Shown here in pieces: positions 4,069 to 27,500 of a DNA stretch of 64,000 nucleotides. The number at the start of each line of letters is the position of its first letter. Position 1 is the stretch's first letter. The translations under genes and the position numbers were made by a program. Source of the DNA: Aphrocallistes beatrix (Eukaryota > Porifera > Hexactinellida > Sceptrulophora > Aphrocallistidae); contig OY725504.1 in NCBI GenBank assembly GCA_963281255.1, forward strand, positions 682,001 through 746,000, read 5' to 3'. Below the pieces are notes generated by a model. It was not told where the DNA came from. It saw only the letters and a program-made list of their open reading frames with translations, and made no database searches.

Positions 4069-4231
4069 CAGGTGACTCCGCTTAATCGGGACACTTTGGT
4101 CTCGGATATTTTGTCCCGATTAAGCGGAGTTCCCAATTAACCGATAAAATTTAGTATAACTTCTATGTATCATTCCGTTCCTGGAGACTTGTCCCGATTA
4201 TGCGGTTGTCCCGATTAAGCGGAGTTGACTG
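4069..4231. mobile_element. TA-flanked MITE, CAGTYGACTCCGCTTAAT family, copy 1
   Basis: A 163-bp element with terminal inverted repeats: CAGGTGACTCCGCTTAATCG on the left and GATTAAGCGGAGTTGACTG on the right. It is flanked by TA (4067-4068 and 4232-4233). Further copies lie at 26333-26527, 35886-36013, 37076-37232, 47254-47440 and 59845-59991, with a fragment near 62832. Terminal CAG and a TA duplication are typical of pogo/Tigger-type non-autonomous elements. It sits between the convergent 3' ends of TMEM237 and WDR83. Confidence 0.85.
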
Positions 4232-10049: not shown

Positions 10050-10730
10050 CACAATATTGCGGGGCTTTTTGTTATATTAAATTCCATTTTGGTTTTGTTT
10101 ACGGTGAAAATATTTCTAGTAGGGTGCAGGTTGTCCTGTTCTGATACTCGATTGTGTACCATGATTGCCTTGTGGATATTCTCCAATTTTGCTGGATGCT
10201 CGATTGAGGTATAAATGCATGAATAATGTCTTCTATTGAGCTTCTTATCAGAGTTTATAACTGGCGAGTTTGTATGGATTTATAGCTTTTCATTGCCTGT
10301 TGTTCCTGGAATCATTAGTAGAACTGGCTTTATGACCAGACTTGACAAGCCAACTTGGTTTAGAGAGAGCATGAAACTGAGTAAGAGTTCCAGTGAACTC
10401 AATCAACTGTGGTCATCCGATTGCACTACCTACAAACTTAAAAATATAGTACTTCAACCTTTTTTCTGATTACGCATTTATAATCTAGAATCCGAGCAAC
10501 GTAGTTTATGACACTTCATGATTTCACCTCTTTGTGCGAGATTTCTAATTTGATTAGGTGGATCCACGCACGTTCGAACTTTAGCGAATCTTTAATAGTA
10601 AGGATTAACTCTACACAATCAGCGTTAGTCCTGGGAAGACTTGAGTGATGGGAAAACTTTCAAAACTGTTCTCTACATACACGATTGTTCATAGATAACT
10701 TTTCTCAGTAATTATTAGTCGAATATTTCA
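10050..10730. other. Intergenic region upstream of BAZ1A
   Basis: AT-rich spacer. A 77-codon plus-strand ORF at 10236-10469 has no recognisable domain and I do not call it a gene. The BAZ1A promoter and 5' UTR presumably lie in the last few hundred bases; no TATA box is obvious. Confidence 0.5.
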
Positions 10731-13700
10731 ATGCCAATCTTGCACAAGTCTCACATGAGGCAAGACGATCCGCTGGAGGATCTCTCAGAGAAAGATAAGG
10801 TGTTCTACTGCCGGACTACAGGTGCTATATTCCGCACATACGAGGACTACGTAGACAATCAGATGCTGTTGCTCTCTCAAGTCTGGACGTGCGAGTACAC
10901 AGGACAGCAGGGACTGACGTACTCGCAGGCTCGAGACAGTGAGGAGCAAGCCTACGAAGCCGTGAAGGACTTCCCTCAAGTGCTAATAGTCGCGATCCTA
11001 GCTGTCGTCAACTCCAGTCTGCGTCTGTCCATCAAGCAGATTGCGATCGAGATCTCGGAGCTGTTCCGTACGCGTTATTTGGTCGGGGAGACGGTTACCA
11101 TTAGGGATGGTGGGAGGTGCTACACCGGAGAGGTAGCACGGGTGCACCATCCCATGATCACTGACGGAGACATTGTGCAGCAGATACGTCAGCAGTACAG
11201 TCAGGTAGCAGAGATGGACAACGGAATCGAGGGAGGAGTGTCGCCTCTAAACGGGAGTAAACAGGACATGTCCACTGTACAGGGGAGCTCACAGTCAGAC
11301 CTGATCTCAGCACTGGACAATCCCGATATGTTCCCACCCCCTGACACCTACGCTTATGATGTGCAGGTGAGGGAAGAGATATTATACAACCACTCAGGGA
11401 AGATCACAGGCAAATCCATTCTAACTGACTCGCCGCTCCTAGCGAGTCTAAAGCCGGGCAGTGTATCGCGGCTAAAAGGAATTTACTCCCGAATAAAAGT
11501 GAAATATTTGCTTCGCTCCTCTCTCCAGCGAGGCATTCCAGGAGATGAGAACCTGTCAGATCTCCCGTTAATACTGAAAGACTCTCTCCGTAACAAATAC
11601 GACCTCCCTTCCTCTTACCCTCTCACCTGCTTCTACACTGAGGACCGGGCGTGGGCACTGCCCATAAACCGCAACTTGTCACAGGTGGACCACCAGTACC
11701 GCGTGAAGCTCCAGCAGGGGATGGAGATCGACAGGATGCGGAAGCAGGCGCAGAGGAGGAAGGATAGGGACGAGAAGCGGGAGCATTTGCGGCAGGAGAA
11801 GGAGGAGGTGAAGGAGGCTCTCGTCGAGCTGAGAGAAAAACGGAGGTTGGAGAAGGAGACAAAGAAAATGGAGGTCAGGGAAATGCGCGCTAGAGAAAAG
11901 GAGCTGTTGAAGAACTTGAAGCTACAGGAGCAGAGGGATCGGGATGCACTCGCGAATCCTGTCGAGGACACTTCTCTCTTGAAATCCACTCCCATCCACC
12001 CTCCTAAACCCTTTTACACCCAGCTGACCCCTCACACATTCGGGCGCGCGATGTCCATACTCGAATTCTTCCGGTCTCTAGGCAAGAACCTGGAGCAAGG
12101 AGCGACGCAATGGCATGCACTCACCTACTCACAGCTGGAGCAGGTCGTGGTCTCTCACGCACACGAAGGACTCTTCTTCAAACTTCTCAACTTTCTCATC
12201 CGGTCCTTGTTCTCTCTACAAGAACAGCAAGAGTACGAAGTCTACCCCTCCCTCTCCAACCTCTACGATTCCAAAGCCGCGAAACCCCCCGTGCCTAATG
12301 GAGAAATGGAAAACGAAGAGACGTCTGGAAACTCAGATAACCCGAGTTATAAATGCCTTATATGGTCATCAGTCTACCTTGGTTCTAAACTGAACGAGCT
12401 CCGCATTGACTCGTGCACCATCTCTGAGGTGTTGAGGCTCTACCTCTTGTCCAGTGGAGGGAGTCCTTACTCGTTCGATAGGAAGATGCATCGGATCATG
12501 CGTCGAGGTAACTATACAGACCGAGACAACCCTTGTGCCAACTTCGTACACGAATATCCACAGATCGTAGAGGTGTTGGAGAGTAGCTGTGTGTTTGATT
12601 TGAGTGAGGATGACAAGACAGTTATACTTGAAACGCTCTGCGCACAGTTGCAGACTTGTGTATTCATTCGTGGAGCCATCGAACTGTCCGCTCGCGAAGG
12701 AAAGAGGATGCGGAAGCTCCTACGTTCTCTCTGCTCGAGCAAGAAAAAGCGCAGCAAAGAGAAGAAGCAAGAAGATTTAGAGCTGCAAGCTGTTGAGGAG
12801 TGTGAAGAAGGAGAAAATATTTCGAGTCAGGAGAAAAGCAGGGAGAAGAATCGAGAGAAGACCTTCCAGGATCTAGTTATCTCAAACGCGAATTTAAGAT
12901 CCATCCTGTTAGGTAGAGACAGGTTCTATGCTCGCTACTGGACCTTCCAATCTTTGCCTGGCATATTTGTAGAACCGATGACCGAACTGGAGGAACCGGT
13001 GCCTGAAGAGGTCATAGACAGTCCGGAGTTCAAAATGCGAGCTGAATGCCCGACTCAGATTTTGGCAGACACGGATTCGAGGGTTCCAACGCAAATCCAT
13101 AGTCCAGAGCAATCGAACATTCCAGAACATTCGAAGATCCTAGAACAGGGAAATAATCCTGCTGGACAAGACAGTATGGATCAGTCGAACATTCTAGAAC
13201 ATCCTGATACGAACATTGTGAGTTATCGCAACATGGAAGATGACAAAGCAGCTGCTACAGAGCAGTTGGACAGTGAAGATCCGTTACAAGGGCTGACACC
13301 TGTTCCAAAAAGCACTGTATTCATTCAAGAAGCCGTCGTGGAGATATTATGTCCATCTGACCCTGTAACACATTCAGACGCGCAACAGAATGAAATGAGT
13401 TCTAGCCTTGACTCCACAGAAGTTCTGTCCTCGCAGAATATGGACACTCACCCTTCTCCTGACTCCTACAAGCACTGGGCTTGGTACGCGAGCAGAGCCG
13501 AGATAGAAAAGTTACTGGATTCCCTGAATAGAAAAGGTATGAGGGAAGCGCATCTCGCTGAGAGTATTGACAAGTACAAGAGTATCATTTTCAAGATGAT
13601 AGAGGATTCTGGTGAGAGCCTAACTTCTCCCGTTGACCCCGTTACGAATAAGAAGAGTTTGGGGAGAATCGTAGCCAACACAGAGCTAGCTTCAGAGTAC

Positions 13701-14960
13701 ATTGAGCTAGCTCTGAGAGAGCAGATCTTAGATCTTGAAGAGAAGGTGTACATGAGCGGGTTCGGCGCACTGCCCGAGGTTAACAGGGTCGGGTGGAGGG
13801 ACGAGTTCATGAAGGGGGGATGCCCCCTCACCTCTCCGAAGAAGAACGCCCCTGAAACTGAAGACGCTCCCGTCTGTAGTTCGTTTGCGCCGCTACCAGA
13901 TGAAACCTTCGGAGTAGTTCCGTCCGTCCGTCTGTCTGCACACACTGAAAAAGTGGCATATGGAGTGGTGCCCGAAATGTCCCAGTGTCTGCTGAGACTT
14001 CAAGACGGAATCGATGTCAAGTATCTGAAGCCCCCTCTCATCCCTCTCGTGCCGACTGGCAAGCGGAAACAGAACGAAACTCCGGACAGCTGTCTCCAGG
14101 CGTGGAGGTGCTCGCTGAGCAGGTGTTCAAGCCTGTCTCAGGTAGCCCTGCATCTCTCTGTTCTGGAATGTTCCATCGCTTGGAACAAGTCGCTGATGAA
14201 TGCTCGCTGCAAGATCTGTCGTCGTGGGAAGGATGAGGAGTATCTTTTGCTATGCGACAAGTGCGACCGTGGCTACCATACCTACTGCCTTGTTCCGCCG
14301 TTGAAGAGTATCCCCAAAACGGATTGGTTCTGTCCGGACTGCCAACCCACCGCCCCCGTCCGTCCTAAGTCAAGAAAGGCGAGAGGCGCTTACACCGAGA
14401 AAGAGAGCGCATCTGACAGTGAGAGCAGTGAGGACGATAGTTCCAACGAAAACGACTCAGACAGTAGCGACTCAGACGGTAGCGACTCCTCTAACGACAG
14501 TTCTGACAGTGACTCTAACAATAGCGACAAGCCACGTGTGAAAAAGAGAATGAAGACACATATTGTTAGTAAGAGGAAGCGTGGCCCGCCTTCAACCAAA
14601 AAACCGAAGAGCAAAAAGCCCAAGATTGAAATGGCAGCGACTTTCGTGTTATGCGAGGAGATATTGGATAAAGTTCAAAATCATCGATTGGCAGAGCCCT
14701 TCATAAATCCGGTGTCAGATTTCGACGTGCCGGATTATTCACATGTTATCGCGTACCCTATGTGTCTCGCTGTGATGAGTGAGAAACTCGCACAGGATTC
14801 GTACAAATCTGCGAACGAATTCAATCGAGACATGGAGCTCATTTTCTCAAACTGCGAAACTTACAATCAACCCAAATCTTCAATTTTTCGTGCGGCGAAT
14901 AATCTCCGTAACTATTACCGAAAACTGACAAATCAATACCCAGACGTGTTTGATAGCTAA
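10731..14960 (+). CDS. BAZ1A: BAZ1A / ACF1, ISWI chromatin-remodelling subunit, intronless
   Basis: Large subunit of the ACF/CHRAC nucleosome-sliding complexes, partner of ISWI (SMARCA5/SNF2H) in the nucleus. The 1409-aa frame is a single exon. In order: WAC domain at the N-terminus ([16 protein letters not shown]-like [17 protein letters not shown], about residues 1-125); a charged coiled coil (about 325-410); a DDT domain ([15 protein letters not shown] ... LLNFLIRSL, about 437-495); WHIM-type segments (about 550-580 and 710-740, including [16 protein letters not shown]); a PHD finger ([19 protein letters not shown] ... WFCPDC, about 1161-1204); an Asp/Ser-rich acidic linker and basic stretch; and a C-terminal bromodomain (about 1302-1400) keeping the acetyl-lysine-binding Asn in CETYNQPKS. 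Length and order match human BAZ1A. It ends 222 bp before the TRIM gene ATG. Confidence 0.96.
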
Positions 14961-15182: not shown

Positions 15183-18100
15183 ATGTCAGAATTCAATTCG
15201 GTTGGGAACTCACTCAACTTTGCTAAACGCTTCAAAGCATTCGAGTGTGGGGTGTGTCACCAGCCCTACCAAGTGGAGGGAGACCTCCAACCTCGAATTC
15301 TGGACTGCGGACACACATTCTGTACCCGCTGCATGGGAGAGGTGTCACAAATCGGTAACATCCAGTGTCCAGCTTGTATGCGTAAGACGCAGGTGGAGTA
15401 CGGCACCCAGTCGCTCAGAATCAACTACGCGATCCTGGAGATCCTGGAGAAGCAGGACAACTACACGCCCAAGCCCCGCGTCCCGCTGTGCGAGGCGTGC
15501 AGGATGGGAGAGGCACAGGTCTACTGCGAGCAGTGCGGCCCTGAAGGCTTCAGACTCTGTCTCAGGTGCTCCAATGTAGAGCACGACAGGCCTTCTCCCA
15601 TCGCAAGTAAGCTCAGAATGTAGTGCTTGATTCTACACATGGAATGTCTTAAGATTGGTTGTTTAGCTTTACTTCACACTTGAAACGATATGAAGTTTGA
15701 GGTCATTAATGAGTGTTTAAAACAGTGACTCATCCTAGAATCTAATTGGTATATCATACATGCCAACTGTCCCGCTTTTTCACTCTTATTGAGCTAATTT
15801 TGACGAGTGTCCCGTTATACACGAAATCTCCCCATTATGTCCCGACTTTTGGATTCCGCGTATAATACTTTCCTATTGCGTCCCGCCATGTCCCACGAAA
15901 TTCAACGCCGAGTCCCGCTTTTATCATGATTCAAGTTGGCTTGTATATAATATAAACATAGCATCACAATGTTTTGCACTGTTTATGAGTTATCAAACAT
16001 CTGTGTGATTAAACGCGTGTATCCTATCAGAGCTCCACACCCCTACCCCACTCGGCGTCACGGCGGAGTACGAGGCGTACCCCTCCTGCACCGCCCACAA
16101 CAGCCCGCTAGAGTTCTACTGCCAGCTGGAGAAGTCCATGAAGTGCATCGTGTGCAAGCAGGAGGCGGGCCTCTCGGAGGCAGACGCGGTAGCTATCCCC
16201 GAGGCTGTGTCCGCACACAAGGAGCGACTCAGGTCACAGCTGAGACACCTGCAGACATACCAATTCACCATACGCGCTGCTATGGAGCAGGTTAGAGTTG
16301 TAACTATCCAGATATGCTATTACATCTGATGGATGACTGTCAGTACGGGATCCACTCGTACCACTACCAAAATGAAATGTACGATTTCTATAGTATTTGG
16401 ATGAGATATCTGTAAGAACACAGTGAAAAGCAAGATTTTATGTTCACTTGGTACGAGTTGGCCTGTGTTACGAGTTGACTGGCATTCGTCAGTACATATC
16501 GGGTGAGGAATCAGGCCATTGACTTAGTGCTGTGTAGGTGAAGTGTGTGCTGAATGAGCTGAGGCCGTCTTCAGACCGGACCATGGACTGCATCCGAGTG
16601 GAGTGTCGGGGTCTGGAGGCGGCGCTGCAGAAGAGACAGGCCTCCCTCCTCAGCATGGTGGAGAAGGAGGAGAAGAACCGGACCTCCAGGCTGCAGTACC
16701 AGCAGGAACACCTGGCTGTGGCTGCTACGCGCATTTCCAAGTTGGTACTAAGCACTCTACTCAGTGTATTTCGCTGTTGTAAGCTAGTGGTCATCGAACT
16801 TTTCCAAGCGTACCCCCAGACTGTTTTTGAACATTTTGCCTACCCCCAACATTTAACTCATGCTATTATCATTAATAAGTTGAGATATTAATGTTGAGAA
16901 TATAAAATTTTGAGAGCCGGCGTACCCCAGTTTGAATACCACTGTTGTAAGCTATACCACTGTTGTGTTCTCTCAGTCCGATCACAGCAGTAGTAGAATA
17001 GGAGCATAATACATAGCTTTGATAATGCACATGTATCGTAGACATGTCTGTCGATAGAGCTACAATGTTGTTCTAGGATAAAACCAGTCAGAAATATGAA
17101 AATTGTTGAAATTAATATGGTCGAAATCGTTTTATTTGTCATAAAATCTTTGGAATACAGACAATTCGTGACAGGACAATTCGTGACAAGACAATTCGTG
17201 ACAAGACAATTCGTGACGGACAATTCGTGACAAGACATTTCGTGACAAGACAATTCGTGACAAAATTTCTAGACATCAGGGGCCTTATTCTCAGATCGAC
17301 TTAACTTAAGCTTAACTTAAACTAAGTAATTACTTAATTACTTAATTTTAGGGCATTAGTCGATCCTCAAAAAAAGGATCTAGATCCAGATCCCGATCCT
17401 AACTTATAAAAGGATCTTCGATCCGATCACGATCCCCAAAAAGATCCTTTCAATAATAGTCAGAGAACTATCATTTTTAGTTCCTGGAAGGAGATGCCTT
17501 AAGGCATGGACGGCGTGCAATGTCCGTTCGTCTGCGGCAGCCTGGGGTGTACTTAGTGCTTAAGTTAGTATTCAAACCATAAAACACATTTTTTAAAAAT
17601 ATTTAATCAACACAAATTTTAACACTATCACCTCCAACTTGGGGAGGATTAAAAAGAAAAAGGATCGAATTCAGTAAAAGTTTCGATCCGATCCCGATCC
17701 CGATCCTACTTTTCAAAAGGATCGTCGATCCGATCTCGATCCTCAAAAAAAGGATCGCGATCCGGATCTTTCGATCATGGATCGAAAGATCCTAATGCCC
17801 TAGATTTAAGTATAAGTATAGCTAAGAAAACTTAATGAAAATAAGTTAAATCCATACCAGGGCTGGGGTTGGTTAACCGATTTTAGGGCTCAGTTATTTT
17901 GGTTTCTTCCAGGGCGGTTAACCGGTTAACCGATGGCAATATAAATTTTTTATCTTTAACCTGGTATCAAATTTTTTATAGTTTTCAGTGGTCTCGAAAT
18001 ATATTATATGATTATAAAATAGGAATTATTCTGTATATCAAATATTTAGAAGTAATTTTCATGAATCTCCGTAGAAAAACAATGAAATTAGTGTAAATAT

Positions 18101-21100
18101 TTATAAAATAAAGTCGATCGGTTAACCGATCGAGGATTTCCTTAACCGTTAACCGAGATTGACGGCGGTTAGGCGGTTAACCGAATCCAGCCTTGTCCAT
18201 ACTTTTTTGCTCGAAACTAAGTAAATACTTAGTTTAAGTTAAGTCGATCTGAGAATAAGGCCCCTGATTTATAGAAATTTTGTCACGAATTGTGTTGTCA
18301 CGAAATGTCTTGTCACGAATTGTCCTGTCACGAATTGTCTGTATTCCCAAATCTTTGTAGTATAAATTTTTTTATTCATGTAATTTCATTATAAAATATT
18401 CGGATATTTTAAGGTAAAGCAACAGTGTAGAATTCCATCAAGAGGTTGCTATGCCAATGAGTGTTTCATAACTCTAATTTCTAGGTGTATTGATTTTGCG
18501 AATGTCCTTCTACAGAAAGACACGGTAGACTTCCTACGCAGTAGCGACTCAGTCATCTGTAAGCTGGATGAGACTCTGAGGGATGAAGACAAAGGCCTCC
18601 ACAAGCCTCTCGCCAACAAAGGGCTGCCCGTCTACCTGGACACCACCTTCATCAACCTGGTGGAGAACTTCGGGGCCGTGGGGGGCGGTCCGATCCCCAA
18701 GAATATAGAGACTGTACATATTAAAGGTAATTCGTTTTCTCGATTATTACAAATGACACTGTACACGCACTAGAGTATGAGTATAGAGATACTGGCGAAA
18801 TCAATAGAGAGAATTCCTGATATCATCACCAATGCTATTTTTAGCTCTGATTCACTATGTTCAGAGTGTAGTATAGGGGGAGCGGCGTTTCCCCACTAAT
18901 TTTCAAAGAGATAGCGCGTTTAACATTTTCCTTGACGGATTGTGGTACACTATCTTTTTAATGATTGTGAATTCTCTCTATTTTCTTGAGTTGCCTTATT
19001 CTTTCACAATAATAAGTAAGAGCGGCGATCTCAAAACCTTTTCAACATTTATAGATATGTTCATGTCCTAACAACATTTTGGCGTAAAATACTACTTTAT
19101 AGGCGCTCCCCCACTTTAATTTTGAGCACTACACCACTGACTCTACGTAGTAGTAGGAGTAGTAGTATAGGCGCCAAGTGTGGGTACCTGGAGGGGGCCG
19201 CCGCCCCCCCAGGTCTAGACCCTGGGGGTGGGCGCCCTCCCCCAGGTTTGGAGCCTGTGGGGGGGGCGTGGTGCTGGGCAGTGGAGCAGTGGAGGAAGCT
19301 GTGGTATGGCAGGACTCCACACAAACTTATAGGTTACAACTAAACCCCAAAATTATGTTAATTGAGTCTAAATATATATCCCAATTACATTTTTCTTCCA
19401 CTATAGTCCGAGATTTTATTTTCCCTAGGTAACAACAATAGCTATATATCGATATTTGAGCATCTAAGATTTTTAAAAATTTCGCTCGCTCTTGGCCACC
19501 CCAGGTTTTATTATATTTTCCAAAACTTGGTGCCTATGAGTAGTAGTATACATGAAATACAGTAGAACCTCGTTTATACGAAACATGTAAATCACTCCTA
19601 ATACGGATTCTGGATAATACTAACCGTGTCTATACTGTCTACGGTTAGGATCACTCTACATCCAGTGGGACCCTCCCGAGATGAAGGTGCTGCAGTATGA
19701 GATAGAGAAGGAGCTGGTCATGAACGATAAGCACATGCTGAAGGAGGAAGATCCACAGGTGACGCTGTGTGAGGGAACTCTGGTCAGTGTTCGGATCATT
19801 GGACTAGCTCCTGGATGCACTTATCGGTACGTAGATACCTTTCCAGATAGAAATCTAAAAAATATAATTAGCTGTTGACTATACTATGCGTACAGTTGCC
19901 TGCCGTTAATTAGCGGATCAGTCTAAGGGCATGCCTAATTTCCGGAACGGGACGGAATCCCGTCCCGGAAATTAGGTATCTTAACCCGTCCCATCCCGGA
20001 AATTAGGCATCTTAACCCGTCCCGGAAATTAGGCATCTTGACTCGTCCCGTCCCGGAAATTAGGTACCTAGATTTTCTGGGATGGTTCCGTCCCGTCCCG
20101 GAAATTAGGCATGTCCTCAGTCTAATCATTGGTACATTTAGAATGATAAACAAAAAAGAGAAAACAGAGTTCATTGTTATCCATAAAACCGTAACTATTC
20201 CTTTAACGTTGTTTTGACACGTTTGGCGATACAGTCAGGGTCGCTTATTATGAACCCGCATAATATGAACATTCGTTTATTATGAACTAACCTCCTGGTC
20301 CCAATTTCATTTTTAGATAGGATTTGTATTGAATCAAGTTCCCTTAATATGAAGTACGTGTGTCTCTATTATGAACAGATTTTTTTGTCCCCTGGTGGTT
20401 CACAATAAGCGACCCTGACTGTATGTATTTAGTATGAGTCCAAATTTGTAATTTTAAAGAATAACTAAGATTAATTCTTTCCTCCAAATCATCCATTTCC
20501 TAACGAAGTAGACATGTACTGCAATGTATCAAATATATACGTCACGTCACGACGATATACGTAAATTCAGAATAATGTCGGTCAATAGCCTGACTGTACA
20601 ACTTCTATACAGTTCGTGAACTGTGAATTCTGCAGGCGTTCTCCTTAAATTTAGCATTGAGGTCACAAGTGATATTATTGATGTTATCATTACGTGACTG
20701 TAGTGATGGGGATTCAGATTATCCAACTTTAATCATTTTCGTTCTCTAATTATTATTTTGTTGGGAACACTAATTCCACAGTTTCACATTGGTTGTCTAG
20801 AAAGAGCGAATAAGTAAAACTTATATTTTCTTGTTGTCTCACATTGTACGTACTATGAAGATATACAAATATACCGAGACGATATCAAGGAGTGATGATA
20901 GCTGCTACTACTGATTACCAATTTGTGGCTCGTTTCTCATACATACCTATGCGCTATCTTGCTACCAGGTAGCTGTCTCATGATAACTAATGATGAAGAA
21001 TATATAAACTATTGCATCGACGAAATGCTTCTCATTAATGCACACACACCAGCACACCTCGCAATATGCTCCATCTTGTCTGTACTAACGAGTGTCTTCA

Positions 21101-23776
21101 CGCAGGTTCCGTATTCGCTCTCAAAACGCGGCTGGCTGGGGCATGTGGTCGCATACGTTCTCGGCGAGCTACTCCAGCTTCCCGATGGAGTTCACCTACT
21201 GCGGGGAGATCGTGGAGAGTGTCATCCCCAACAGCGGATACTATCGGGTCGAGAGCTACGGCGCACAAGCTGCGGACGGGGAGATGAGACTGGGTGGTGC
21301 TGGTGCGATTATTTGTGCCACCTTCCTTCTCAATGCCAGTGAGTTCTCCTTCTGCTATTTTTAACTAACCTTAATAGCTTGAGAATGTGTGATTTTATTT
21401 TGTTTGATACTACATGAGAATACATCCACTTTTTGCTGGTCTCATTCTTGATAGAAGTGTGACCTTTCCCTAGTGGAGAAATAGACCCATGATTCTGACT
21501 CTCCTCGTCCATGAGGCTCGAGTATTCACGAATGGGAAAATTAAGTTATCATAATAGTACTGCATTATCTATCATTCATGTTTAGTGAACTCCTTTTTCT
21601 AATCCTCAATGAGCTATCCTCTGCAGTAGACTTAGAACCTCTAAAAATCTGGATTCCTTTATAATCGTACTGTTTAACTATTAAGTATATATTTAGAACG
21701 CGATATTAGCACATTTGAATTCAAACTACGTATACTTCTGCATCGTCTCAAAATAGTGATATTTTAAGTAACATGATTATGTTCTCATAATATCCAATAT
21801 TTCAATACTGTTACTAAATAGGTTGTTATAAATATCTCCATTGATCTCTCAAATTCCTAGATGACTATCTGGACATTCTTTGTGGAGGAATGTCCCAGAA
21901 GAGGGGCTGCTGCTCTGGGGGTGCAGGGGGGACTTTCATTTCGATTAACGGAAGAAGAAACCCTCTCATCGTCGCGGGGGGAGGGGGCGGTACACGGGGA
22001 TACGAGGAAGATGATCCGGACGGACAACCCGGAGACCTGCAGGTAAAATAGCTCCGAATAAACTTGATTCGTATAAACATGACTGAAGGTCTTGTTGCAA
22101 GGTAACTCCACAGCTTACAGGTTGTTAGATTAAAGTGCTGTAGGAAGAAGGAGGAGGGAGTATCGGGAAAGAGTGCGCGATGGGAGGAGCAGCAGGTGGG
22201 TGCGGGAAGGACGCGATATTTAGAAACTCTTCATTCGGGTATGGAGGTGCTGGTTATAACACCAACTCTACTACCAGCTTCTCATTCGTGTCGGGTCAGT
22301 TTTTTGTAAATATCACAAATTTAGCGACGACATTCTTGAATTATACAAATTATTATTATTTAATTAATTAAACCGAATATAATTATTGAAACTGGCAGGG
22401 TTCTATCTAAGATGTTAAATTTCAGGAGGAAGGTTCCCCCCAACAGATAGAACCACCTGACTGTGGTTTGATTTTCCTTGCATTTGAACTCCAATTAATG
22501 TTGATTCTGTAACGATGTGTAACGATGTGTAACGAAGTTTAATTTTAGTACAATACAAGAATTGTATTACTCATCGAGTTGTGAAATAGATTGTAGCATC
22601 ATCTACTTTCTAGTCGTGTTGTTACGTAGTGTTAAAGCATCATTGTATTTACATTATCACGAGTTGTGCTGATGCCTCGAAAGTTCGATTTTCTATTAAT
22701 TTATTGTGTCATTGCTCCTCTTAGCCAATCGAAAGTTTTAATGATTATATAAGAGAGAGATTTTCAAATTCTTTGATTTCTGTATTACAAATTTCCACTT
22801 AACTTGTCCAATAATATATGGATTTATAATATGTATGCATTTTGAAGTTTAAGAAACGATGGAATAGCTCATTGGAGAGATCAAATTATAGCTTTATTTT
22901 GCGGCTTATTACAGTAGCGTATCTCTCTTGTACAGGCGGCGAGTCTGGGGAGTGCGGCGGGTTCGGGGGAGGGGGTGCGATCGGATCGTTCGGGGGCGGG
23001 GGTGGAGGAGGCTACTCAGGAGGGGGCGGAGGAAGGGGAGCAGGGGGAGGCGGCTCCTTCGTGAAACAGGACGGAATGGACGTCATCAAGAAGATAGGAC
23101 ACAAGGGACACGGAATGCTGAGATTATCGCGAGTCGAGATGCCAATAGAAGCAGACTTGGTAAGCTATACTTCTCCAATGTAGAATTACAGCATTTATTA
23201 ATTAGAGTAACTAGGGCGATTTATATGCATCACAACTATGATTTTGGAATTCGGAACTTCTACACGCTACGATGTCAGCTTCATTCCACACTTTGCACTT
23301 TGGAGAATCTTAAAACCTCAATTATTCGAATGAAATTATTTTAGCTCACTGAGGTCCGATGATCATTCAAGCAAATATGCTATCCAATTAAACTATATGT
23401 CACAGTAATGATTATAATAAGAACAAAATTGTAACCGTGAACGAATCCATGAGGGAGGGCGAAGTGTAAACCAAAATGTTAAATCAGCATTGTTTATTTG
23501 TTATATTGACGTCAATTCGTTTGAGTATATAGTATATTAGCTCCATATTGTTCCCTCAGCTTATAGTATACTTGTGATATAATATTTTAAATGTGGACTT
23601 TATAGTTTCTCCATTGTTAGGTGAATATACAAACTACTGAAGTTCAATCGATTGAAAATTCAGATATCTTCTCTACCCCTCCCATTCACACGGATCCCAG
23701 TGACCTCCCTACAGCCATCACTTCCCTCTCCCTCATAGAACAGACTTCTCCTTCCTCTGATAACCTCATCAGCTAA
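15183..23776 (+). CDS. TRIM-type E3 with FN3 and ALK/LTK-type glycine-rich domain
   Basis: Ten exons: 15183-15606, 16031-16290, 16538-16740, 18485-18726, 19649-19826, 21106-21338, 21861-22042, 22144-22294, 22936-23159 and 23621-23776. All are GT-AG, phases match at every junction, and they give 750 aa. Domains: RING (CGVCHQPY ... CGHTFCTRCM ... CPAC, residues 22-65); B-box 1 (CEACRMGEAQVYCEQC, 103-136); B-box 2 (about 161-200); coiled coil to about 300; FN3 (LYIQWDPPE ... YRFRIRSQNAAGW, about 378-455); then a glycine-rich domain (about 465-690) from FTYCGEIVESVIPNSGYY through GGAGGTFISINGRRNPLIV and AGGGGGTRGY to polyglycine helices near GECGGFGGGGAIG. That pattern matches the ALK/LTK extracellular glycine-rich domain. 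An acidic serine/proline tail follows. There is no signal peptide or membrane helix, so the product is probably a cytosolic ubiquitin ligase. AATAAA lies at 23944-23949. The function of the glycine-rich module here is unknown. Confidence 0.88.
15757..15945. mobile_element. MITE, TACATGCCAACTGTCCCG family, copy 1 (TRIM intron 1)
   Basis: Inverted ends TACATGCCAACTGTCCCG and CAAGTTGGCTTGTA enclose repeated TGTCCCG blocks. A second copy in opposite orientation is at 60465-60632 in RASA1. The TA-like termini suggest a Tc1/mariner-type target, but this is not certain. Confidence 0.7.
16350..16495. repeat. Interspersed repeat with GGTACGAGTTGAC ends, copy 1
   Basis: The block between TGACTGTCAGTACGGG and GAGTTGACTGGCATTCG in TRIM intron 2 recurs in reverse orientation at about 62518-62645. 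Shared internal text includes ACTCGTACCACTACCAAAATG and GATATCTGTAAGA. Inverted GTCAACTCGTACC-type ends suggest another MITE family. Confidence 0.75.
17349..17802. mobile_element. GATC-rich inverted-repeat element nested in the MITE
   Basis: Ends TAGGGCATTAG and CTAATGCCCTA. The interior holds many GGATC/GATCC words in both orientations (GATCCCGATCC, AAAAGGATC, TCGATCCGATC), so it is unusually dense in GATC sites and self-complementary segments. A central unique part (about 17460-17640) has no ORF. No other copy is seen in this window. Confidence 0.7.
17858..18195. mobile_element. hAT-like MITE, CARGGCTGGRTTGGTTAACCG ends, copy 1
   Basis: Ends CAGGGCTGGGGTTGG and AACCGAATCCAGCCTTG, flanked by TCCATAC on both sides (7 bp, or 8 with one mismatch). 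A second copy in opposite orientation is at 59386-59749. Both carry several GGTTAACCG palindromes near their ends. The duplication length and CA...TG ends fit hAT. Confidence 0.85.
19166..19537. mobile_element. hAT-like element, TATAGGCGCCAAG ends, GC-rich core (TRIM intron 4)
   Basis: Ends TATAGGCGCCAAG and CTTGGTGCCTAT are flanked by GAGTAGTAG on both sides (19157-19165 and 19538-19546). The flank is itself a TAG-rich microsatellite, so the exact duplication length is uncertain. The core (about 19190-19270) is strongly GC-rich with runs of G and C and gives spurious glycine/proline ORFs. A relative with GGCGCC ends is at 37802-37948. Confidence 0.72.
19558..19640. repeat. Fragment of a pogo/Tigger-like element
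   Basis: ACAGTAGAACCTCGTTTATACG is a typical Tigger/pogo terminus. It is followed by about 60 bp of related sequence without a clear opposite end. The fragment lies just before the acceptor of the FN3 exon at 19649. Confidence 0.6.
19927..20116. mobile_element. GGGCATGCC foldback element, copy 3 (TRIM intron 5)
   Basis: Ends GGGCATGCC / GGCATGTCC enclose several CCCGTCCCGGAAATTAGG units separated by CATCTTAACC or CATCTTGACTCGT spacers. A perfect 9-bp duplication, TCAGTCTAA, flanks it (19918-19926 and 20117-20125). Confidence 0.9.
20232..20421. mobile_element. TA-flanked MITE, CAGTCAGGGTCGCTTATTATG family, copy 1
   Basis: A 190-bp element with inverted ends CAGTCAGGGTCGCTTATTATG and CAATAAGCGACCCTGACTG, flanked by TA. 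Copy 2 is at 60649-60822. Internal words GAACATTCGTTTATTATGAAC and TTTTTGTCCCCTGGTGG are shared. Confidence 0.85.
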
Positions 23777-24580
23777 TCGCAACCTAGCAACACTCAAATA
23801 TCTCGATTGTATTAATACAAATGTTAGAATCGGTAAGTAATATTTTGTCACATTATTATTATTATTATTATTATTATTGCATTGACCTGTTGTTATCAAT
23901 TGGTTGTGGAATTCAGTTGTGTGCTGTGTATTTCGGTGTTATTAATAAATTTGAAATATTTGCATTTCTCTGCAATCGGAATTGCAATACAAATAAGTTC
24001 ATGGTTCGTTGTTGTAGAAGATATTGCATTTTCTGTTCTGAAATTTTCACACTAGTGGTCTCGCCATATTTTTCGAATTTCCCAAACTTATTAATTATCC
24101 TCTCACATCGCTATACTGCACATTTTCATATATCATTGAAACGCATTCCTTAGAAGTTTGTACAAATGTCCTATATAGCACATACTAGATCATGTATCAT
24201 ACTTCCGTACTATCAAATCAACTAGTGGCATTCTTGGGTGTGTAACCAAATCCAAGAGTTTGAACTGTTGTTTTTCTTGTCTTTTTTAGTCTAAGTAAAG
24301 ATATTGATAATCTACTTAATTGAGAGAATATGCTTGTAATTAATTAAAATCAACATTTTCGATCGAGTCCGGAAATATCTTGAAAATCCTTTGAGATATA
24401 CCGTATATATATATATTCACCAAATAATCGCTCCAAAATATGGCCGTGGTGCTAAATTTTGTTACCCCAAGTGATGTTCAATGATACTAGAATCTATAAA
24501 GCAGGATTGAAATGTCGGTAGGTTTGCTATATGTATATTCACTTCAACACTAGCAATTTAAACCTGCATCAAATTACAAA
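23777..24580. other. Intergenic region, TRIM 3' end to TRAF start
   Basis: No gene supported. It contains an (ATT)n microsatellite at about 23855-23878, the AATAAA at 23944-23949 that probably ends the TRIM gene, and a short AT repeat at about 24405-24416. The region upstream of 24581 should hold the TRAF promoter. Confidence 0.5.
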
Positions 24581-27500
24581 ATGGCTACTAAATTGAGACT
24601 GGAAGAGCTCCCCTCTTCTCCTTCTTCTTCCTCCCCTTCCTCACCCTCTCCCGCATCCACCCCACTTCTCCCCACACCTCCCACCTCTCCACCGAGACTA
24701 CCAGCCCCCCCGCCCCCTAAGGAGGACAACCGGGACTCTCTCCTCTACGTGAAGCACCCCCAATTCCTCTACATCGGGGGCTACCGACCCGATCTGCTGC
24801 TGGAGGCACTGTCGGAGGATTTCATTTGCGGTCTCTGTCGCGGAGTGGCGAGAGACAGCGTCCAGACCATCCACTGCGGGGCTGTGTTCTGCAAGGGCTG
24901 CATGGACTACGCCTTCTCTAAGGTCAAGCCACGCAGGAAACGGAGTAGCAACCCCGGACTCGGACTGATGGGGGGCAAGCCCCCTAGCCCTGACACCAAC
25001 TCCGTAGCCAAGATAGAGTGTCCCAGAGAGGGGTGCACCTTCAGGTCAGTTGGACTCTACTCGCTTAATGCGGCATCGAAATAGGTCTGAATACGTGTGA
25101 CTATAGACTAGCGGTGGAGGGACAGTATCCAGACACCAGGCATCAGAACCAGGTGTCAAAACTCCAAGTGGCGTGCCCCATGCAGTCACTGAGGTGTTGC
25201 ACCTGGACAGGTTCCATCCAGGAGCTGGTCACCTCCCATCTGGACCAGTGTGAGCTGGTACGGGAGCCCTGTCCTAACGGGTGCGGACTGAATGAACTCA
25301 GAGGACAGCTAGAGTTCCACCTCGCTGAGAGATGTGGGAAGAGACAGGTGTGTTTACATATGTGTGATATAGGCTTTATTCTGATATTATCATATTTTCA
25401 TTCGTTTGTATGCACGATTTTATTTCCAAATTTAGTTATTTGTCTTGTTCAAAGGTGCAAAAAAAGTAGTTGTGTCGTCTCAATCCATTAATTAATCCTC
25501 AACTTTCAAAGCTCAATTTTCTCTCTCAATGTACACCTTGATCCAAAACTATAGTACATCACAGCACTCGTGAGTTGCAATAACGTGGGGCATAATCATA
25601 AGGTCATGAGACCTCGGTAGTAATGAGGAGATTGAATTATAATGATTGGTCATGACGCTCATGTGTTACGTAACACTACAATGTTGTGATATGCAATATT
25701 CTCACAGTTAACATAAATATAACTATTTATTCCAAACGACACGAGGATGAACAAATATTGCTCTAGGACTCCGAGAATGCTGGTTAATAATATGTGTATG
25801 ATGTGGTAGAATGAGAAGATTCATGTGTGAAAGTTTTATTTGTTGATGATATAACATTCCTAAGACTAAGTTAGCCTTTCTCCCAATGAAGAGCATACCC
25901 ATGGTTAATAATGAAATGTGTAATTCTTAAACACGAGTCAAGCTTCAAACTTCATATTACCTAATTATGGTTTGTTACAGGTACCCTGCGAGTACTGTAA
26001 ACTGCACATAGAGAGTCGACTGTTGAATGAACACCACGCATCTAATGACTGCCCTGACTACCCAGTGCCCTGTCCCAACAAGTGCATGAATGGAGACAGG
26101 AGACAGTACCTCCCTCGCAGCCAGGTGGTCGTTCATATCTCTAGCGTGTGTCCCTTGGAGATGGTGCACTGTCCGTACGTGGCTCACGGGTGCGCAGACC
26201 AATCGGCACGACAGGATCTACACACCCACCTAAACAACTCCGTCTCTATTCATCTTGACCTGGTGAGTTCAATTAAATGAACAAACCGTATATTCTGCTG
26301 TGTAAGTCTCTGAGACAAATTTAAAATCAATACAGTCGACTCCGCTTAACAGGATCACTGTTTAATCGGGTCAACCGCTTAATCGGGCCACTTTTGGCAG
26401 AACCGGAATAGCTCTCACATATAGAAGCTAATACAAACTATTTTCGGTTAATAGGGTCCTCCGCTTAATCGGGTCAAAATGTCCTCTGACCGATCACCGA
26501 TGTGACCCTATTAAGCGGAGTCGACTGTATTTTCAGAACATGATCAATGTGTGAAAAATACTCTTAATCGCTACAGTAAATAAAAGCAAGAAAATATTTC
26601 GTCACAAAATCAGTGTGTTTTTTGTGTTTACGAAAGCCCTTGATTGAGAGAATAATTCATCCGTGTTATCACTGCACTAGACTAGTACAAGGTTCCGAAC
26701 ACTTGCAATCCATAGTTTGTATTCTCAGACACGACGATCAGGTCCCCTCCTCTGGTGATCAGGATGCCCATAGGGTGCACCAGCTCCCCCATATGATGCC
26801 CATATTCCCCCACTCGATACAGCAAGCTCTTGCCATTAGGACTGAACACTTTGATAATGTGATCCCCGAAGTCCGAAACAACGATGTTTCTATGTGGGTC
26901 TATCAAGAAGTAGCTTGGGAATTGCACTTGCATTTTAGATCTGAACTCACCACGTGTAATCACGGACTCGATTATGTCTCCTCCAAGCGTTAAAACGTGA
27001 ACGCAGAACTTCCCAACGTTACTCAGAATGTACAGTTGATCGTTATATACGTTGATTCCGATTGGGCTTCTAACCCCTCTTAATTTTATGACTTCCGTCC
27101 TTTCTAATTGCTTGGAGAAAATGCATATCCTGTTGTTGTTGTTATCTGGGATGTAAATTCGCCCATCATCACCTGCGAAAGGCTGCCTCAATAGATTATA
27201 ACATTTTTCTGGATCGAAGTTGTTCTTGCCTGATCTTTTCTTGACTTTTAAATTAGTCAGGTCGTATTTGAATAAACTCGTGCCTAGCCAGCCCCAGTCC
27301 GTGACGTAGAGGAAGCCCTCCAGCACCAACAGACTGGAAGGCGTGTCCAACTCTTCTTCCCCGAATTCATGTATCCATGCACCATCACCGTTGAAGATCT
27401 GTATACGCGAGTTCTTCTCATCCACTACGAATATTTCGCGCGTATCCTCTCGGTAAGCCACACCCCTTGGACCATCAAGTTCCCCTTTCTGGTCCCCATT

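Follow-up and report, generated by a model that had tools for sequence, protein, structure and literature searches.

The analyzed window is a stretch of 64,000 nucleotides (C18:682001-746000) from the Aphrocallistes beatrix assembly, whose 100.5 Mb in 28 contigs also served as the genome searched below. Of 19 homeobox matches in this genome, eight were inspected and seven contained a readable homeodomain; by eye, these are Msx-like, Bar-like, NK-like, POU and LIM types with no Hox type among them, which would suit a sponge or some other early-branching animal. It harbors a gene of ten exons whose product displays, in this order, a RING, two degenerate B-boxes, a coiled coil and an FN3 domain (together referred to here as the RBCC-FN3 part), followed by a glycine-rich domain (GRD) of ~ 231 residues. 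GT/AG borders and consistent phases hold throughout, so the ten phase-consistent exons of the preliminary description are borne out, with one border refined using the paralogue described below. The end of exon 3 and the start of exon 4 were set to 16740/18485 (16744/18516 in the first model) because the paralogue has the matching stretch within one exon (CIDFANVLLQK in the gene, CNDMANILLQK in the paralogue); with this shift, the Pfam score for TRIM_CC, 19.1 bits before, rose to 24.9. The features are presented in Table 1.

Table 1 Features of the window and of related loci in the same genome (window positions unless a contig or locus is named)
Feature	Position	Strand	Content
ACF1/BAZ1A-like gene	10719-14960	+	one open frame, 1413 aa; WAC, WSD, PHD and bromodomain by Pfam
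TRIM-type gene	15183-23776	+	ten exons, 750 residues; ATG 15183, stop 23776
Exon 1	15183..15606	+	start codon; RING (residues 21-65, about 15243-15377); B-box-1-like motif begins about 15486
Exon 2	16031..16290	+	remainder of B-box 1; degenerate B-box 2 (about 16081-16161); coiled coil begins
Exon 3	16538..16740	+	coiled coil (TRIM_CC under cut-off)
Intron 3 element	17149-18350		long inverted-repeat ends
Exon 4	18485..18726	+	last part of coiled coil, then helical linker where a COS box would sit; acceptor chosen from the paralogue
Exon 5	19649..19826	+	bulk of FN3
Intron 5, first element	19916-20127		short inverted repeats, 42 nt at 88%
Intron 5, second element	20229-20424		short inverted repeats, 28 nt at 96%
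Exon 6	21106..21338	+	last part of FN3 (ending about 21160) and beginning of GRD (from 21185), one open exon
Exon 7	21861..22042	+	GRD core: NPLIVAGGGGG and conserved acidic loop TRGY[E/D]EDDPDGQ
Exon 8	22144..22294	+	GRD, continuing
Exon 9	22936..23159	+	polyglycine stretches of GRD; GRD ends about 23141
Exon 10	23621..23776	+	weakly conserved tail and stop
TRAF-like gene	24574-26280	+	RING-like start, two TRAF-type zinc-finger stretches
Paralogue	C15:3177808-3174150	-	exon series, 732 residues
Third RBCC-FN3 gene	L026:1454-3808 (C11:4321500-4331000)		exons read by eye
URGCP/VLIG-type GTPase frame	L026:4154-8998		one exon, 1614 residues, 325 bits; same strand as the third RBCC-FN3 gene
RING-B-box protein	L027:2398-3957	-	intronless, 519 aa, Pro/Ser-rich tail
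Lone RING pattern	L203:8789 (C12)		SPRY match about 4 kb before it, same strand

The gene lies between an ACF1/BAZ1A-like gene upstream and a TRAF-like gene directly downstream, so that TRIM-type and TRAF-type genes stand side by side. The RING-like start of the TRAF-like gene scores 18.6 bits (under the Pfam cut-off of 27), and its TRAF-type zinc-finger stretches score 22.5 bits (under the cut-off of 27) and 45.5 bits (over it). Intron 3 holds an element made of 15-nt units around GACAATTCGTGACAA. Its inverted-repeat ends, ~ 1 kb apart, show 90% complementarity over 110 nt and 96% over 69 nt, and the element resembles a nested non-autonomous DNA transposon. Of the two elements in intron 5, the first contains internal GTCCCGGAAATTAGG repeats.

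When the GRD and the RBCC-FN3 part were each searched against the genome, they revealed, besides the gene itself, an exon series on another contig (C15) whose joined exons encode a full-length protein with the same domain order. The two proteins are identical at 44% of 713 aligned residues. Part by part, the identity and dN values are 42% and 0.68 for the RING, 33% and 0.79 for the B-boxes, 38% and 0.62 for the coiled coil and linker, 46% and 0.57 for FN3, 60% and 0.35 for the GRD, and 14% and 1.50 for the tail. Since dS is at least 1.55 in every part and saturated in two, dN/dS ratios are not given. The GRD is thus the part that is best kept, with 46% identity even when columns of paired glycines are removed; its polyglycine stretches are conserved, and the acidic loop is identical in both genes except for one acidic swap. 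None of the nine intron positions is identical in place and phase, one being a column off, so that shared introns add no support to the architecture. The lack of a common intron and the high dS suggest that the duplication is old. To our mind, the recurrence of the domain order on another contig nevertheless settles that the predicted RBCC-FN3-GRD architecture is real, and the earlier proposal that RING, B-boxes, coiled coil and FN3 are joined to a GRD in one gene is thereby upheld.

In the RBCC-FN3 part, zf-RING_5 scores 32.1 bits in the window gene and 33.0 in the paralogue (Pfam cut-off 27.9), and both have the C3HC4 pattern with all zinc ligands present. FN3 is recognized as well, at 34.8 and 30.5 bits, respectively (cut-off 25). 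For TRIM_CC, the window gene reaches 24.9 bits (E 2.1e-5) and the paralogue 11.7, against a cut-off of 30; in a search of solved structures, TRIM3 matches the window gene collinearly over residues 145-305. The B-box score of the window gene is 14.6 bits (cut-off 24.1), and the paralogue is unlisted for zf-B_box. In an alignment of the window gene, the paralogue and a third RBCC-FN3 gene on C11, all eight Cys/His positions of the B-box-1 pattern are invariant, and the B-box of the C11 gene (C11:4323517) exceeds the Pfam cut-off with 26.6 bits. An intronless gene elsewhere in the genome (L027) also encodes a RING-B-box protein.

These data raise the question of whether the C-terminal part is a genuine ALK/LTK-type GRD (PF12810), as the preliminary description had proposed. 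Pfam ALK_LTK_GRD does match the final 750-residue model, at 25.1 bits (cut-off 24.5), the match covering residues 477-718 of the protein and positions 5-218 of the 243 in the profile; taken by itself, the GRD of the gene reaches 16.8 bits (E 0.0072). For the paralogue, the full protein gives 7.7 bits (E 4.2) and no stretch of it passes; its isolated GRD is unmatched, as are all six reversed or shuffled controls. A sequence search of the PDB with the GRD returned ALK chains as the first six of eight entries (best E 0.057), with two blocks that follow one another as they do in ALK (query 14-64 on ALK 53-105, 4.5 bits; query 68-217 on ALK 142-288, 13.1 bits), and ALK was absent from the PDB results of a two-sequence profile made from the GRDs of the gene and the paralogue. 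As this direct evidence is thin, a profile of bacterial and viral PF12810 relatives was built. It comprises 30 sequences, 27 from genome_contigs (bacterial) and three from viral_contigs: L090 and 29 non-redundant sequences, the latter drawn from 41 that were retained among 80 domain hits. Hits over 200 or fewer profile positions and near-identical sequences were left out, and the profile is narrow, its 27 bacterial members being related to one another. Pfam confirms PF12810 in three members (L110, 86.3 bits; L090, 29.0 bits; L100, 63.6 bits). The last of these was chosen by eye from a pattern scan of viral_contigs in which at least 125 frames had a LIVAGGGGG-like motif and a filter retained 12. 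Many of the other such frames resemble Gly_rich_2 by eye, and Pfam scored two of them for that family at 35.8 bits (above the cut-off of 24.3) and 22.9 bits (below it).

Against this profile, the first 62 residues of the GRD, which are glycine-poor by eye count (9 glycines in the gene, 11 in the paralogue), score 22.7 bits in the gene and 20.2 bits in the paralogue (E 8.9e-5 and 5.2e-4, respectively, taking a nominal 24,736 sequences), almost unchanged with or without bias correction. None of 1000 shuffles per gene reached these values (best 8.2 and 7.9), and the reversed sequences scored 0.7 and 1.5. A profile-profile comparison of the GRD pair by hhalign gave a probability of 96.5 and a score of 68.0 over columns 2-97 only, compared with at most 1.4 in 100 column shuffles and at most 41.3 in 100 local column shuffles, both profiles being shallow (Neff 1.3 and 2.2). 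The whole GRD is not significant under HMMER bias correction, at -0.6 bits (E 38) in the gene and -12.6 bits (E 800) in the paralogue; the best shuffles stand at -12.0 and -16.8, the reversed sequences at -18.8 and -22.0, and the full-length proteins at -4.7 and -15.0 bits. Uncorrected, the whole GRDs score 64.3 and 57.5 bits; their best shuffles reach 44.8 and 45.2, their reversed sequences 48.4 and 46.7. In either correction mode, none of 400 shuffles per gene reached the real score. That the C-terminal part is homologous to PF12810, beyond mere polyglycine, is thus well supported at the sequence level.

In the genome itself, a DNA motif for [FLIMV][IMV]VAGGGG, searched through the 100.5 Mb with common words skipped, occurred only in the gene and its paralogue (reversed control, 0), and the GRDs of the two genes found only themselves and each other there, the best candidates alone being scored. 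The PF12810 profile, run exon by exon against the genome, detected nothing, and no control was detected in that search either. Outside the genome, PF12810 proteins of bacteria (e.g., Lachnospiraceae, L158-L200) and of viral contigs (e.g., L110) have a similar GRD entry strand, which in L110 reads YTG..V...IP..G.Y..E.WGA, and the LIVAGGGGG core; they differ from the window gene in that no relative carrying an RBCC part turned up in the viral, bacterial and archaeal collections searched. With the GRD of the gene, two stretches of viral_contigs matched the search pattern and none was confirmed, while query A1 gave 90 pattern matches in viral_contigs and 133 in genome_contigs, again with none confirmed. 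The GRD of the paralogue had no tblastn match in phages and plasmids.

Another important question is to which kind of TRIM protein the RBCC-FN3 part belongs. MID1 (TRIM18), MID2 (TRIM1), TRIM9, TRIM36, TRIM42, TRIM46 and TRIM67 are the proteins that we take to form class I; they share with the window gene the RING, two B-boxes, coiled coil and FN3 in the same order, TRIM42 being without SPRY. The window gene differs from them in having a GRD instead of SPRY, in B-boxes that score under the Pfam cut-off and in a COS box undetected by Pfam. Its assignment to class I in the preliminary description rests on FN3 and the domain order and is tentative, given the lack of a Pfam COS match and of SPRY and a RING that is closest, among solved structures, to TRIM23. 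COS (PF18568) was unlisted at E up to 10 in the window gene and the paralogue, and a COS search of the genome found none, with no control detected either. By eye, the exon 4 helix is, we presume, COS-like. Among solved structures, the RING is closest to that of TRIM23 (E 3.1e-12), and the N-terminal half also matches TRIM3 (E 4.6e-10) and TRIM32; no MID or TRIM9 chain is among the 35 structures listed for this half. Profile A2 (coiled coil, linker and FN3), searched against the PDB, retrieved FN3 proteins and TRIM3 but no MID or TRIM9 chain in the best 60 of 130 matches, and so is of no help on COS. TRIM23, given as R-B1-B2-CC-ARF in Table 1 of PMC2533329, where TRIM architectures are set out, differs from the window gene in its C-terminal ARF GTPase and in having neither FN3 nor GRD.

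It had also been suggested that the GRD has taken the place of a SPRY domain; the sequences do not show such a replacement. Pfam finds no SPRY in the protein of the window gene or in the paralogue. The genome contains at least 12 SPRY matches at at least nine places and at least 24 B-box matches, a search that missed the B-boxes of both the window gene and the paralogue. RING and B-box patterns were found together within 9.5 kb of SPRY at none of nine places, the patterns being weak (3/4 controls recovered for RING, 1/4 for B-box); hence, within this limited search, no RBCC-SPRY gene was found. At one locus (L203), a lone RING pattern follows a SPRY match, an order that we assume to be that of RNF123/KPC1. 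The C11 gene is an RBCC-FN3 gene without SPRY that ends right after FN3, and its presence makes gain of the GRD by an RBCC-FN3 protein an account that fits the sequences equally well and is at least as likely as replacement of SPRY. By eye, the C11 gene has a long insertion ahead of the last FN3 strands. A URGCP/VLIG-type GTPase frame lies 3' of it, and a fusion of the two was considered and dropped: the FN3 frame stops at L026:3806-3808 and the GTPase has its own ATG at 4154, so they look like two genes.

The gene could still owe its appearance to the erroneous joining of two neighbors, one of the RBCC-FN3 kind and the other bearing the GRD. The C11 gene shows that an RBCC-FN3 protein may stop right after FN3, and the paralogue has an intron six residues into the GRD, both of which would suit a mis-join. 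Nevertheless, the end of FN3 and the start of the GRD share one open exon in the window gene, a single exon of the paralogue joins the last FN3 residues to the first six of the GRD, and the whole domain order is repeated on another contig, which makes this explanation very unlikely indeed. A somewhat less remote, though improbable, reading is that the C-terminus is an unrelated low-complexity tail of the collagen, silk or RNA-binding kind, GRD-like by composition. The Pfam score barely above its cut-off, the failure of Pfam to recognize the paralogue and the negative bias-corrected scores of the whole domain against the bacterial profile would be expected of such a tail; the match of the glycine-poor entry region in both genes, reached by no shuffle, would not, nor would the profile-profile probability with its lower reversed and shuffled controls, nor the two blocks ordered as in ALK, even if the first of these is worth only 4.5 bits.

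In both the window gene and the paralogue, hydropathy reveals neither a membrane span nor a signal-like N-terminus (highest 19-residue mean 1.36 in both; first 40 residues 0.25 and -0.13), and there is no Pfam match to a tyrosine kinase or EGF-like domain. The GRD thus sits within a probably intracellular protein, in agreement with the earlier view of a domain normally outside the cell carried by a cytosolic E3. This sets it apart from the ALK/LTK receptor kinases, which it resembles in the PF12810 match and in ALK being the top PDB match; in their extracellular part, the glycine-rich region lies beside a TNF-like domain (PMC10605310).

Taken together, these observations make it fairly probable that the gene produces a soluble TRIM-type RING E3 ligase with an ALK/LTK-type GRD after FN3, at the target-reading place, where it would act as the specificity module. 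TRIM proteins work as coiled-coil dimers whose RING operates with an E2. By analogy, a dimeric intracellular E3 with the GRD as target-binding module is the most likely form: two chains would associate by their coiled coils, the RINGs would recruit an E2 and, following TRIM logic, the FN3-GRD arm would hold the target. The role of the GRD as specificity module is suggested by its being the most conserved part, and the acidic loop TRGYxEDDPDGQ would be the best candidate contact site. The GRD might instead serve structure or assembly, with polyglycine stretches that hold dimers together or drive condensation while targets are bound by FN3, the B-box or a partner. We regard this as unlikely: the conservation of long polyglycine stretches and the position of the glycine-rich region of ALK/LTK next to a TNF-like domain (PMC10605310) speak for it, whereas the conserved non-glycine positions include the acidic loop, which would suit a contact or metal site better than a scaffold.

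In the open-licence literature, judged by titles and the beginnings of abstracts, we found no TRIM protein with a GRD; PF12810 is mentioned in one paper, whose title and abstract beginning do not concern TRIMs. Two of the TRIM surveys, PMC2533329 and PMC3503706, are presumably Sardiello et al. 2008 and Marin 2012, respectively. In the available portions of these and of PMC3137616 (zebrafish and pufferfish), the word glycine occurs 0 times, and the available portion of PMC8195603, on immunity domains, mentions neither glycine-rich nor ALK. The RBCC-FN3-GRD protein would thus be, on its sequence, a known kind of TRIM with a C-terminal variant not found in the literature searched. A bolder reading, which we consider doubtful, is that it represents a separate TRIM class of intracellular E3s, perhaps limited to a single early-branching lineage of animals, that recognize their targets through a receptor-type GRD. 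The target might be a protein ligand, as for ALK, or glycine-rich bacterial or phage proteins carrying the same domain, which would make the protein an intracellular sensor of microbes.

TRIM ligases gain functions through change of their C-terminal domain. If the reading of the gene as a GRD-bearing E3 is true, a domain of the ALK/LTK ligand-binding type would here be working inside the cell, apart from a kinase, and the two natural, diverged copies could be used to test what the GRD binds.
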